From Halorubrum sp. CBA1229 (GTDB taxonomy: Archaea; Halobacteriota; Halobacteria; Halobacteriales; Haloferacaceae): a DNA stretch of 64,000 nucleotides. The notes under the pieces were generated by a model that did no database searches, was not told where the DNA came from, and saw nothing but the letters and a program-made list of their open reading frames with translations. The position numbers and the translations under genes were made by a program. The stretch spans positions 1,736,001 to 1,800,000 of the forward strand of contig NZ_CP054585.1 in assembly GCF_003721435.2 (NCBI RefSeq), given 5' to 3'. Below are positions 6,136 to 55,460 of the stretch, one piece after another. Numbering within the stretch: the stretch's first letter is position 1; each line of letters starts with the position of its first letter.

Positions 6136-6320
6136 GGGTAAACTACCCTACCCTACTTCGCTCACCCCATACGGGGTTCGCTCGTTGAGGGTAGGGCTTT
6201 GATGTGGACTCCCAGCAATCAGTCGCCAGCAATAGGCTGGTGACTCTTGCCGTTCAACGTCCCACCATTTACACGCACGTCTACTGGTGCGTCTCCGCTC
6301 CCCGACTTGGGCGAGGAACG
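6136..6320 (-). ncRNA. omega-RNA (right-end hairpin) of the TnpB element
   Basis: Downstream of the tnpB stop codon, and overlapping its 3' end, is a strong nested hairpin. The outer stem is CCCTACCCT (6146-6154) with AGGGTAGGG (6188-6196). The inner stem is ACCCC (6164-6168) with GGGGT (6173-6177). A further small palindrome, GGGTA-AAC-TACCC, lies at 6136-6148, where the element would end. In IS1341/IS605 elements the right end is transcribed as the guide scaffold (omega-RNA or sense-overlapping transcript), with the guide taken from DNA beyond the end. The boundaries given are estimates. Confidence 0.6.
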
Positions 6321-7463
6321 GAGTCTGTGTGTCCGCTTTCGGGCATACCGTACCCCGATATTCTTCGCCGCGTTGTAATCCGCGTTGACCTCATAGCCGC
6401 ATTTCTGGCACTCGAAGTGTTCTCCGTGGCGGTTCACTTCGTGCGTGAACCCACAATCCGTCCGAGAACAGCGCTGGGACGTATGGTTCGGCTCGACTTG
6501 CTCCACGGACACGCCCTGCTCTGGTGCCTTGTAGGAGACGTACTCGTACAGGCGTCGGAACGCCCAAATGTGGTGCCATTTCGCCTGCGGGAGCCGCTCA
6601 CGGATGTCGGTTAACTCCTCGAACGCGATTACGTCGCAGTCGTGTTCGACGGCTTCCGAAACGATCTTATTGGCAACCGTGTGGATGTACTGCTTCCGCC
6701 ACGCTTCTTCGCGCTTTCCGAGGCGAAGCAGGGCGTTGTGCGCGGCTTGCGTCCCGCGCTGTTGCATCTCACCACGTCGCTTCTCGAATTCACGGCACCA
6801 GTGATCGTATTCGTCGCCCTGCCAGAACGTGCCGGTCGAAGCTACTGCGAGGCTGTTGACGCCGAGGTCGATACCAAGAACTGTTTGGTGCTCGGTATCT
6901 TCCGAAACCTCGGATTCGTCGGTATCGTACTTCCGCGTCGTGATGTGGAGATAGAACTCGTCAGTCGCCTTGTCGTATTGCAGTGTGCTCGCACGGAACT
7001 CGTAGTCCTCCGAGAGAACGTACTGTTCGTAGGGAGTCGGGCTATCCGCCGGAAGTTCAAAGTCGCACTCGACGCGCCCGTTGACGGTCGAGAGAGACAC
7101 ACGGTCGCGGTAGAACGTCGCGCTTCGCTTGTCGTAGACCATGCTCCACGACGTGAACTCCGGCTGGCTCACCCGCTTGCCCTGTTTCCACCGTTCGACG
7201 CACCCGTTCGTCGCTTGGACGGCACGTCGGATGGCCTCTTGAACGAGGTTCGCAGTAAGATCAGTTTCCTCTCGCAGTTGTTCGTAGAGCGCGTCCCGTG
7301 CGGTCGAGTTCGCCGTAACGCAGTTGGCGTAGGAGTTGTCGTCCCAACAGAATTCAGCGGCACGATTCGCACAGTGAAGGAACTGTCGCGCGGATTCGTG
7401 GAGGTCGTCGTACCGCTCATCGGGAACAACAAGTTTGACCGGCGCAGTTCGACGCACCTCCAT
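6219..7463 (-). CDS. tnpB: RNA-guided endonuclease TnpB
   Basis: A 414-residue TnpB. The split RuvC nuclease residues are all present: D199 in GIDLGVNSLAV, E282 in AFEELTD and D362 in NADYNAAKN. A zinc ribbon uses C332, C337, C352 and C355. The N-terminal half carries the wedge/REC region. Family members cut DNA next to a short TAM at sites matched by the omega-RNA guide. Length and catalytic residues look intact, so the protein may be active. Base composition is lower in GC than its neighbours, which fits a mobile gene. No TnpA is nearby. Confidence 0.93.
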   Translation of the reverse strand: MEVRRTAPVKLVVPDERYDDLHESARQFLHCANRAAEFCWDDNSYANCVTANSTARDALYEQLREETDLTANLVQEAIRRAVQATNGCVERWKQGKRVSQPEFTSWSMVYDKRSATFYRDRVSLSTVNGRVECDFELPADSPTPYEQYVLSEDYEFRASTLQYDKATDEFYLHITTRKYDTDESEVSEDTEHQTVLGIDLGVNSLAVASTGTFWQGDEYDHWCREFEKRRGEMQQRGTQAAHNALLRLGKREEAWRKQYIHTVANKIVSEAVEHDCDVIAFEELTDIRERLPQAKWHHIWAFRRLYEYVSYKAPEQGVSVEQVEPNHTSQRCSRTDCGFTHEVNRHGEHFECQKCGYEVNADYNAAKNIGVRYARKRTHRLRSSPKSGSGDAPVDVRVNGGTLNGKSHQPIAGD

Positions 7464-7611
7464 GTTTCAGATTACTATCTAACGGTACTTACCTGTTGGG
7501 GAGTCAGGTAGCTACCGTCGTGCGGTTGCGTCGTCCGTTGTCGGTTTCCTCTCCGACCTACTCGCTCGCTGCTCTCGCTCCTTGAGGTCGGAGGCTCCAC
7601 CTCGATTTATG

Positions 7612-7760
7612 CTGAAGCGCGCAGCGAGCGTGCGCGGCCCTCGTGGCTGGGGCTTTGAAAACGTTCACCGCCGGTCTCTCAGCAACCACTTATAAACGAG
7701 CGGCTGGGGCGTTGGAGGCGTTCAGAGCCGATCGAACGAGGCTTGCTTATAAATGATCAG
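7612..7760 (+). repeat. Copy D: 3' fragment of the interspersed stem repeat
   Basis: The 370 bp between tnpB and the next gene hold no credible gene. CTGAAGCGCGCAGCGAGCGTGCG (7612-7634) is identical to a segment of the full copy at 55 kb, and is followed by the family hallmark GGCTGGGGCTTTG and a TTCACCG. A second diverged unit (GGCTGGGGCGTTGGAGG, about 7701-7717) follows. TATA-like boxes stand at 7688-7696 and 7747-7753. The left arm of the stem is absent, perhaps lost when the TnpB element arrived. Confidence 0.65.
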
Positions 7761-17200: not shown

Positions 17201-17546
17201 TTATAAATACGAGGCGGTGGCGCGTGCCGACGAGCGCCCAGTGGGCGCGAGTCGCACGCGCGAGGGAGCCCGCGGCCCGCCACCGGCGGCCGCGGCGAGG
17301 CTGGGGAGGTGTGAGGCTGCGGTGCGGTTGTGGGGGTGGGACTCAAAGGGGCAGTCGCGATTCTCGCGAGCGGAGCGAGCGGAAGACGAGAGACGAAGTC
17401 TCTCGGAAGGGCGAAGCACGGCGCAGTAAGCACCGCAGCGAGGGAGCGCGAGCGACTGAGCGAGGAGCGCAACAAGCCGCGCGAGTCCTCGCGGCCGGGG
17501 CTTTGGAGGTGTTCTCCGGCGACCCGCAGCCAACCGTTTATAAGCG
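17201..17546 (+). repeat. Copy A: full interspersed stem repeat
   Basis: The 713 bp between the reductase gene and tRNA-Gly hold this repeat and no credible gene. From TTATAAATAC (17201) it runs through a GC-rich leader with CTGGGGAGGTGTGAGG (17301-17316). The left arm is CAAAG-GGG-CAGTCGCGA (17344-17360), followed by a variable middle. The right arm is TCGCGGCCG-GGG-CTTTG (17489-17505), then GGAGGTGTTCTCCGG and GTTTATAAGCG (17536-17546). Inner arms CTCGCG (17363-17368) and CGCGAG (17480-17485) also pair. Both ends face inward as TATA-like boxes. ORFs inside are counted as shadows. Confidence 0.7.
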
Positions 17547-17630
17547 AGCGACTGCGTCTTTCTGAGTTCAAATCGCTCGGTGACCTCTCTCACTTCGTTC
17601 GCGAGTTCGCTGAGCGGAGTGAAGCGAACG

Positions 17631-20824: not shown

Positions 20825-21691
20825 ATGCGTACCGAAGACGGACTCACGATCTGTGTTCCGTCTTCGGTCGTCCGGGAGGCCGAGGACGATCGCGAGGCGA
20901 CTCGCAAACTCGGCTACGTCGCCCGTGCGGCGGCGGTGTTCCGGGCGGATCGACTGGTCGTCTTCCCAGACGGGGAAGGCGAGCGGCGACGGGGCGGCGA
21001 GTACGTTCGGACCGTGCTGGGGTACGCCGCGACCCCTCCGGGGCTCCGCAAGGACCTCTGGGGGGAGCGCGACGAGCTCCGGTACGCCGGCGTGCTCCCG
21101 CCGCTCCGCGTGCCGTGGCGGACCGGCTCGACCCCAGACGGGGAAGAGTCGAAAACACAGGGACTCGTGACCGAGGTCGGACCTGAAGGCCGCGTCCGGG
21201 TCAATTCCCCGCTGCGGGAACACCCGATCTCCCTGCTCGTGCCCTCCGGAATGGAGGTCGAGCAGGGGGAGCGCGTCACCATCAGGGTCTCTTCGAGAGA
21301 ACCGGTCCGCGCCCGCATCACCGGGAAGCCGGAGGACGGTTTCCAGGTCGTGGAAGCGGACCTGTCGGAAGCGCTCGCCGGCGACGGACTGGCCGTCGCG
21401 ACGTCGCGACACGGGGAGGAACTCTCCGTCTCGCGGCTCGGCGGCATCGTCTCGGACGCGCGGGAGGCCGGCGGCTACACCGTCGCCTTCGGCGCGCCCG
21501 AGCGAGGGCTTCCGGAGATGCTCGGGCTTTCGCCCGACGGCATTCGGGCGGCCGTTGCCGACGGCCGCTCGGTCGAACCCGATCCGGGGTTCGACCTCTG
21601 GCTGAACACGATCCCGGCACAGGCGAGCGAGGTCGTCCGGACGGAGGAGGCTCTGTTCGTGACTCTCGGCTCGCTCACACTCACGGAGTAA
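20825..21691 (+). CDS. SPOUT-family RNA methyltransferase (putative rRNA uridine-N3 type)
   Basis: A 288-residue protein of the COG2106/DUF171 type. The N-terminal part (ICVPSSVVREAEDDREATRKLGYVARAA) is a SPOUT alpha/beta knot start. An OB-like insert covers about residues 90-175, and the knot closes with YTVAFGAPERGLPEMLG and LNTIPAQASEVVRTEEAL, which would bind SAM. It sits 4 nt before rpl3, its usual archaeal position. ATG 20825 is preferred to GTG 20789, because CCTTTTACGG (20780-20788) lies too close to the GTG. Uridine-N3 methylation is inferred from family annotation. Confidence 0.82.
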   Translation: MRTEDGLTICVPSSVVREAEDDREATRKLGYVARAAAVFRADRLVVFPDGEGERRRGGEYVRTVLGYAATPPGLRKDLWGERDELRYAGVLPPLRVPWRTGSTPDGEESKTQGLVTEVGPEGRVRVNSPLREHPISLLVPSGMEVEQGERVTIRVSSREPVRARITGKPEDGFQVVEADLSEALAGDGLAVATSRHGEELSVSRLGGIVSDAREAGGYTVAFGAPERGLPEMLGLSPDGIRAAVADGRSVEPDPGFDLWLNTIPAQASEVVRTEEALFVTLGSLTLTE

Positions 21692-43432: not shown

Positions 43433-43507
43433 GCGAGTTCGGTAGGGACCGCGGTGTATCCCTCTGACCGATAGCGAGAGTGGACATAGTACGTCGCGAG
43501 TGAGGTG

Positions 43508-43682
43508 GTTTATAAATGATCGAGTGGTGTTGCCGTCGGCTGTTTATAAGTGAGTAGCGACTCTGGGTGAACACCTCCAAAGCCCCACCCGCAACCGCCC
43601 CGCACCTCCAACCTCCCCAACCTCGCGCCCTCTGGGCGCTCGGAGGCGCGCCGACCGCACCGCGCCATTCATTTATAAAAAA
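43508..43682 (-). repeat. Copy C: internally deleted interspersed repeat
   Basis: The 490 bp between the phosphatase and glutamine synthetase hold this element and no convincing gene. Read on the minus strand, it begins at the TTTATAAAA box (43672-43680) and runs through a leader with GCGCGCCTCCGAGCGCCC, GGTTGGGGAGGTTGGAGG. It then jumps directly to GGGTGGGGCTTTGGAGGTGTTCACCC, skipping both long arms and the middle. Two TATA-like boxes close it (TGTTTATAAGTG at 43541-43552 and TTATAAATGATC at 43510-43521). The second box is shared as a 12-mer with copy D. Confidence 0.65.
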
Positions 43683-43924
43683 TCGTTGCTCTCGCATTCT
43701 TCTGTTAAATACCACGTTGCCGACGGCGGTCTGCAATACCCACTCCCGCTATCGATCGCCGTCGCGCGCCGGTCGCGACGCGCCTCGTCGGCAGTCGAAA
43801 ACTGCGTGACGATGCGAAACCGGAGAGACTGAGGGCGCTGACCGCACCGGAAAACCGACCGCACTAAAAATCGAACGCGCCGAGAGAGCCGAACGGTCGA
43901 GAGAGCCGCGACCGCGCCGTCGCC

Positions 43925-54815: not shown

Positions 54816-54932
54816 CGCGGCGGTAGTTCTCTGCAGTCGCGATTCTGTTCCGTTTGTCGACGTACAGAAGTGATACGCTCGTCCGTCGATCGATCGCCGG
54901 GGCGAGTGCCACGGATCGGCGGCAGTGGTGTG

Positions 54933-55322
54933 GTATTTAAAAACTCGTGAGGACGGCGATGCTCGTTTATCAACTGATGGGGCGGTGGCGCGCCTCCGAG
55001 CGGTCGCCGGCGGCGACCGCGAGGAGTCCGCGAGGGACGCGGTGAGCGCTCGGAGAGCGCGAACCGCGAGTCTGGGGAGGTGTGAGGTGTGGTTTCGGTG
55101 TGGGGTGGGATTCAAAGGGGCAGCCGTGAGGCGGACGCAGGCGACGTAAGCACTGCAAGGAGCGAACAAAGTGAGCGACTGAAGCGCGCAGCGAGCGTGC
55201 GTCCGCCTCACGGCTGGGGCTTTGGAGATGTTCGCTGCACCAGCGACTGCGACGACGTGCAGCCGAGCGGCGGGGCCTTTGGAGGCCTTCACCGAAGCGT
55301 CGTCAACGGTATATAAATAACC
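54933..55322 (+). repeat. Copy B: full interspersed stem repeat
   Basis: The 645 bp between this protein and nrdJ hold the repeat and no credible gene. The left end has GTATTTAAAAAC (54933) and CGTTTATCAAC (54964). CTGGGGAGGTGTGAGG (55072-55087) equals copy A. The arms are CAAAG-GGG-CAGCCGTGAGGCGGACGCA (55113-55139) and TGCGTCCGCCTCACGGCTG-GGG-CTTTG (55198-55224). The inner 19 bp pair perfectly, with a G-G internal loop and a 58-nt middle. A second GCGGCGGGGCCTTTGGAGG follows, then TATATAAATAACC (55310-55322). Confidence 0.75.
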
Positions 55323-55460
55323 GACAGCGACACCGTCGCTTACTCATAAACAACCGATCGACCGAATTGACACACGTACTCCCGCTATCTCTCACCTCCG
55401 GCTCCGTACCGGTTGAAAAAACCGCGGCGCCGATAGCTCGTTACCGACAGCTCGCCGCGT

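Follow-up and report, generated by a model that had tools for sequence, protein, structure and literature searches.

Covarying hairpins in a widespread, modular family of haloarchaeal intergenic elements

Two repeat copies, A and B, in a 64,000-nt stretch of the Halorubrum sp. CBA1229 genome (positions 1,736,001 to 1,800,000 of contig NZ_CP054585.1; hereafter the window) are members of an intergenic family with about 100 copies in this genome. Folding of the core hairpin of the element, P3, is selected, since changes in one of its arms are matched in the other, so that pairing persists beyond what relatedness explains. Comparison of the copies showed that selection maintains the folding of one strand, and that the sites are old while modules move between them. 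The paired mutations keep one strand foldable despite constant sequence swapping, so the folded shape itself matters. We consider it plausible, if somewhat short of probable, that these are haloarchaeal non-coding, non-autonomous intergenic elements which work like REP, REPIN and BIME sequences and fold as single-stranded DNA.

The order of parts in Halorubrum is a TATA-like box, the hairpins P1 and P2, a linker, a GT-rich spacer with a terminal GGGAC, P3 and 57-bp tail units. The copies in the window and the region compared between species are the following.

17201–17209 (+): copy A, TATA-like box TTATAAATA, recognized by sequence just upstream of P1
17213–17266 (+): copy A, hairpin P1 (GCGGTGGCGCGTGCC...GCACGCGCGAGGG), from sequence comparison and RNA fold
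17268–17296 (+): copy A, hairpin P2 (CCCGCGGCC...GGCCGCGGC)
17297–17316 (+): copy A, near-invariant linker GAGGCTGGGGAGGTGTGAGG (102 genomic places, 79 exact)
17343–17506 (+): copy A, core hairpin P3 with CAAAG/CTTTG outer helix and GGG/GGG opposed loop; insertion at about 17361–17411
17507–17554 (+): copy A, 57-bp tail unit (AGGTGTTC..TTTATAAGCGAGCG), by nhmmer
54902–54941 (+): copy B, degenerate outer 5' module with the 3' end TATTTAAA, by the 5' module HMM (E=4e-14)
54984–55067 (+): copy B, hairpins P1 and P2, by sequence and fold
55068–55087 (+): copy B, linker GAGTCTGGGGAGGTGTGAGG
55112–55225 (+): copy B, core hairpin P3 with perfect 19-bp arms, by covariance model (133.8 bits)
55226–55317 (+): copy B, two degenerate tail units, by nhmmer
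55369–55389 (+): copy B, outer 3' end ACACACGTACTCCCGCTATC, matching in inverted orientation the 5' outer module that fuller copies have
7610–7710 (+): third copy, broken, with the 3' half of P3 and a tail unit only; 5' side replaced by TnpB-adjacent sequence
43460–43765 (-): fourth copy, reduced to outer inverted ends, TATA-like boxes, a short P1 and the linker
54902–55389: 3' intergenic region of nrdJ, compared with loci L090–L110 and L251–L257

The preliminary description had proposed that the arms of the repeat differ between copies A and B and still pair. This was confirmed for copy B, where 55121–55139 is a perfect reverse complement of 55198–55216 (19/19), and the outer CAAAG/CTTTG pair with the opposed GGG/GGG was seen in both copies alike. 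The copy A segments 17352–17360 and 17489–17497 pair at 8/9 positions, with the one G·T wobble already recorded and one A·C mismatch that had been missed. The second copy A pairing, 17363–17368 with 17480–17485, matches in its letters; family comparison indicated that it is probably not the conserved one, because it crosses an extra hairpin insertion (17361–17411) and the family partner of 17480–17485 is the GGGCGAAGC segment 3' of this insertion.

The linker is G-rich, near-invariant and unpaired, and its sequence GAGGCTGGGGAGGYGTGAGG occurs at the 102 genomic places given above. Tail units of 57 bp, some of them repeated in tandem with near-identical sequence, lie almost only 3' of a core and on the same strand. 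Further multi-hairpin modules are optional insertions that interrupt the element at several points. The fourth copy in the window lacks P2 and P3, and GGGTGGG is fused there to GCTTTGGAGG. The P3 core is 107–125 nt long. Three copies (G000: 143160, 830742 and 2881002) have the inner hairpin of P3 turned round with respect to the GGGG tracts, an inversion that probably arose when the arms recombined. A module delimited by GGAAGTCGCAGCCCGCGCAGC..GAGCAGGACCGTCTTCC, conserved in sequence across haloarchaeal families, is optional, being either inserted in the linker or placed close to the element; it was found at L234, L227 and several G000 copies (e.g. 722803 and 1734656). Haloarcula cores form head-to-head pairs about 43 bp apart without a TATA box, and halves with a missing hairpin also occur. 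Such inverted doublets are clear in Haloarcula and G058 but are not the rule in Halorubrum.

BLAST and a pattern search each gave more than 60 matches in this genome and the reversed control pattern gave none; the core covariance model gave 100 matches at E≤0.01, a few of which are one place matched on both strands. The window lies on the main chromosome contig (3.22 Mb of the 3.58-Mb Halorubrum genome), as do all listed copies. The 364-kb second contig carries none, about ten being expected there (P ~2e-5 if placement is uniform). Plasmid and phage records were searched without a Halorubrum match, and an origin from either was ruled out, there being no Halorubrum plasmid match and no phage match. 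All 95 copies analysed are intergenic; the surrounding genes, called by codon usage rather than annotation, are convergent for 32 copies, co-directional for 46 and divergent for 15, and 2 cases are incomplete. The copies follow no gene-orientation rule and their flanks are ordinary genes. Their spacing along the chromosome looks random (CV 0.96), regular spacing being rejected, and we claim no replication-strand bias, since the best arc split had p=0.006 before correction for the scan. With the threshold of E≤1e-5, the 114-position core model detected the element in 288 of the 391 haloarchaeal genomes (species sampled) and in 69 of the 86 genera. Copy number per genome varies between one and about 100, and it does so among Halorubrum genomes too.

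Both the number of genomic copies and the covariation tests place the pairing beyond chance. Across 42 Halorubrum copies 98.8% of pair cells are standard pairs, with 16 of the 30 pairs changing on both sides. The covariation score of this set was 0.330, against 0.119 for shuffled and at most 0.056 for slid alignments. The suggested covariation test over genomic copies, run on 95 sequences and 6129 column pairs against an R-scape-like null built on a tree, gave seven significant pairs (E<0.05), all within the proposed structure. Among 40 sequences from other families, both sides differ in 24 of the 30 pairs (score 0.588 vs 0.159), in an alignment that was fitted to the structure and so leans towards it. 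The outer helix, which is invariant in Halorubrum, covaries in this set, and the GGG/GGG opposed loop is retained in nearly all of it. Tandem G·A pairs in complex internal loops are also conserved across families.

The folding was originally attributed to selection on either RNA or a DNA cruciform. The first part of this proposal holds in that folding is selected, and folded RNA is still among the candidates discussed below; the symmetric DNA cruciform as the selected form was rejected. A cruciform folds both strands, so that G·T and A·C should be tolerated equally. The core alignment contains 45 G·T against 9 A·C (binomial p 7e-7, the cells not being independent), the distant set 24 against 7 and P2 5 against 0; P1 showed no excess (9 against 10, a crude count). 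Moreover, in all 72 copies compared the fold of P1 to P3 is more stable on the + strand than on the - strand, whether RNA or DNA parameters are used. The excess of G·T and the more stable + strand point to selection on one single strand.

GNA triloops are exceptionally stable in DNA. The closing loops on the + strand comprise 59 GNA triloops against 21 of the reverse-complement type, and one GNRA and one UNCG tetraloop. Folded single-stranded DNA is favoured because GNA triloops dominate, RNA tetraloops are nearly absent and the Haloarcula head-to-head pairs have no TATA box; it fits as well as or better than folded RNA and is slightly ahead. Family comparison showed the conserved imperfect P3 hairpin alone, head-to-head (in Haloarcula and others) or with hairpins, linker and tails (in Halorubrum). 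Single-stranded states of the DNA, such as those at replication forks, would expose the hairpin to a putative trans-acting protein. This protein would recognize its shape and its fixed single-stranded motifs (the GGTGGGAC foot, the GGG/GGG loop and the G·A-rich apical loops) and allow copies to be gained, lost, inverted and exchanged. The strict intergenic placement, the in-place inversion at nrdJ and the Haloarcula head-to-head pairs support this REP-like reading. Against it count the core, which far exceeds the REP hairpins of bacteria in length, the lack of a G·T excess in P1, the old sites of most copies, which imply that movement is rare, and the TATA-like box, which 71% of copies have at an almost constant distance from P1 and which suggests transcription. 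The lack of a TnpB-like zinc-finger ORF beside any fetched copy other than the broken one also counts against it.

The alternative closest to this reading is a structured non-coding RNA made from the TATA-like box or by read-through, with about 100 paralogous genes in Halorubrum, which would bind a protein or the ribosome through the G-rich linker and the tail, GGAGGTG resembling an anti-16S motif; we regard it as possible but rather doubtful. A TATA-like box no more than 40 nt upstream of P1 was found in 62 of 87 copies, as compared with 0.3–0.5% of control windows. The near-invariance of the unpaired linker, the excess of G·U over A·C and the complex internal loops with their tandem G·A pairs are also consistent with RNA. 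The box, however, starts 13–19 nt before P1, and archaeal transcription usually starts about 26 nt from the TATA centre. At this distance the start would fall inside P1 and the 5' arm would be lost, so that the box is doubtful as the promoter of the folded molecule. The few RNA-type tetraloops, the Haloarcula pairs and the result of a search of Rfam 15, in which neither gathering nor permissive thresholds gave a covariance-model match to the element, also argue against RNA. Similarly tentative is the wider proposal that the family forms a new haloarchaeal class of large, modular, covarying structured RNA or single-stranded DNA, with fixed chromosomal sites, a dedicated partner protein and whole hairpins swapped among the roughly 100 copies.

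In a second Halorubrum genome, 36 of the 50 copies examined were found at the same sites as here, 35 of them in the same orientation, and sites are common to several Haloarcula species too. The core identity was 80% at shared sites and 76% at unrelated ones, and the copies at shared sites were best matches in only 4 of 26 cases. The differences between copies at one site mostly reflect exchange of a whole arm or module rather than mutation in place. These comparisons indicate that the sites are old and that the sequences at them have been largely swapped between copies. Changed pairs were still paired in 83% of cases vs 31% under independent mutation, which on its own does not prove in-place compensation, since exchange moves whole modules.

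It could be argued that no structural selection acts at all, gene conversion homogenizing blocks and template switching in palindromes keeping the arms complementary. That copies at a shared site are hardly more alike than others and that hairpin modules, inverted apices and in-place inversions exist would agree with this. Both processes are strand-symmetric, which does not fit the large excess of G·T over A·C or the better folding of the + strand throughout the copies. In addition, two-base helices within purine-rich loops covary across families whose genomes carry few copies. This explanation is already disfavoured and we consider it unlikely. A classical MITE mobilised by a terminal-inverted-repeat transposase is more improbable still. 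The inverted outer ends of a few fuller copies (GATAGCGGGAGTNNGT) and the GTGTTCAGATAAGC ends flanking the core in G037 and G038 speak for it, but outer ends differ between lineages and are recognisable in only a handful of the 95 copies, while the folded core persists; a general terminal-inverted-repeat boundary was rejected, being found in few copies.

Among the nearest known counterparts are bacterial REP/REPIN/BIME sequences with their TnpA_REP (RAYT), which have hairpins of 21–65 nt with a GT[AG]G tetranucleotide at the foot (PMC3116915, PMC6006769). The haloarchaeal elements share with them the intergenic location and high copy number (95/95 and about 100, respectively), a hairpin that is imperfect, has certain positions fixed as unpaired and carries a set motif at its 5' foot, head-to-head pairs (clear in Haloarcula and G058) and compensatory changes (PMC3116915, PMC6006769). 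They differ in the core of 107–125 nt, the multi-hairpin partners, the linker, the tail and the archaeal host, and the GTGG within their foot motif GGTGGGAC does not lie immediately at the foot. Large modular intergenic repeats with a conserved fold and a variable module number are known in bacteria as BOX, ERIC and bcr1; our elements resemble them in modular fold, those repeats being bacterial. IscB/TnpB guide RNAs (HEARO, omega RNA) are likewise multicopy structured elements, related to IS200/IS605. The tail of our elements is unlike a guide, and a TnpB/IscB guide RNA was rejected, as the flanks of the fetched copies contain no zinc-finger nuclease ORF. The only TnpB-like zinc-finger ORF beside these copies is the IS605-type gene at the broken 7.6-kb copy. 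This TnpB gene (OrfB_IS605, Cas12f1-like zinc domain; window 6219–7463, -) adjoins the copy at about 7610–7710, whose hairpin appears to have been the landing site of an IS605-type element.

The transposase-free SMR, PATEs, MITEs and SwitchRepeats of Haloquadratum show different or inverted repeats at one site between strains (PMC3119063). SMR-A is about 110 bp long with inverted ends, and SMRs are absent from the large plasmid, favour IS605/PATE targets and are usually >95% alike within one type (PMC3119063). Like SMR, the present elements are haloarchaeal, lack a transposase and have a core of comparable length. Unlike SMR as described there, they covary, are about 76% identical on average and are flanked by ordinary genes and not by IS605/PATE palindromes, apart from the IS605-type gene beside the broken copy. 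The halovirus HF2 58-bp promoter repeats were rejected as a source of the tail because the motifs quoted in PMC8707807 differ. The family was previously unlisted in the open-access literature, and an earlier description elsewhere is possible. A structured element present in about three quarters of the sampled haloarchaeal species and absent from Rfam, with covariation comparable to that of established RNA families, should reveal either an archaeal counterpart of REP/REPIN or a new structured RNA. With its stable sites and exchanged sequences, the family also documents gene conversion among dispersed loci as it happens in nature.

At the nrdJ 3' site, the Halorubrum species carry the element in either orientation between the same inverted outer ends, or relics only, and no clean empty site could be defined there for a target duplication. 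Of named relatives, Halorubrum sp. Boch-26 comes closest at the nrdJ locus (92% nucleotide identity). At the nrdJ loci of G032, G041 and G052 (L265–L273), the nrdJ match is split into separate pieces inside open frames of 1203–2662 aa, which suggests putative ribonucleotide reductase inteins. Elsewhere in the window, 21183–21285 (+) matches the Rfam L4-Archaeoglobi ribosomal leader (74 bits), with an L3 ribosomal protein gene (21696) 411 bp downstream; it is an autoregulatory leader occurring beyond Archaeoglobi, the namesake of its Rfam family.
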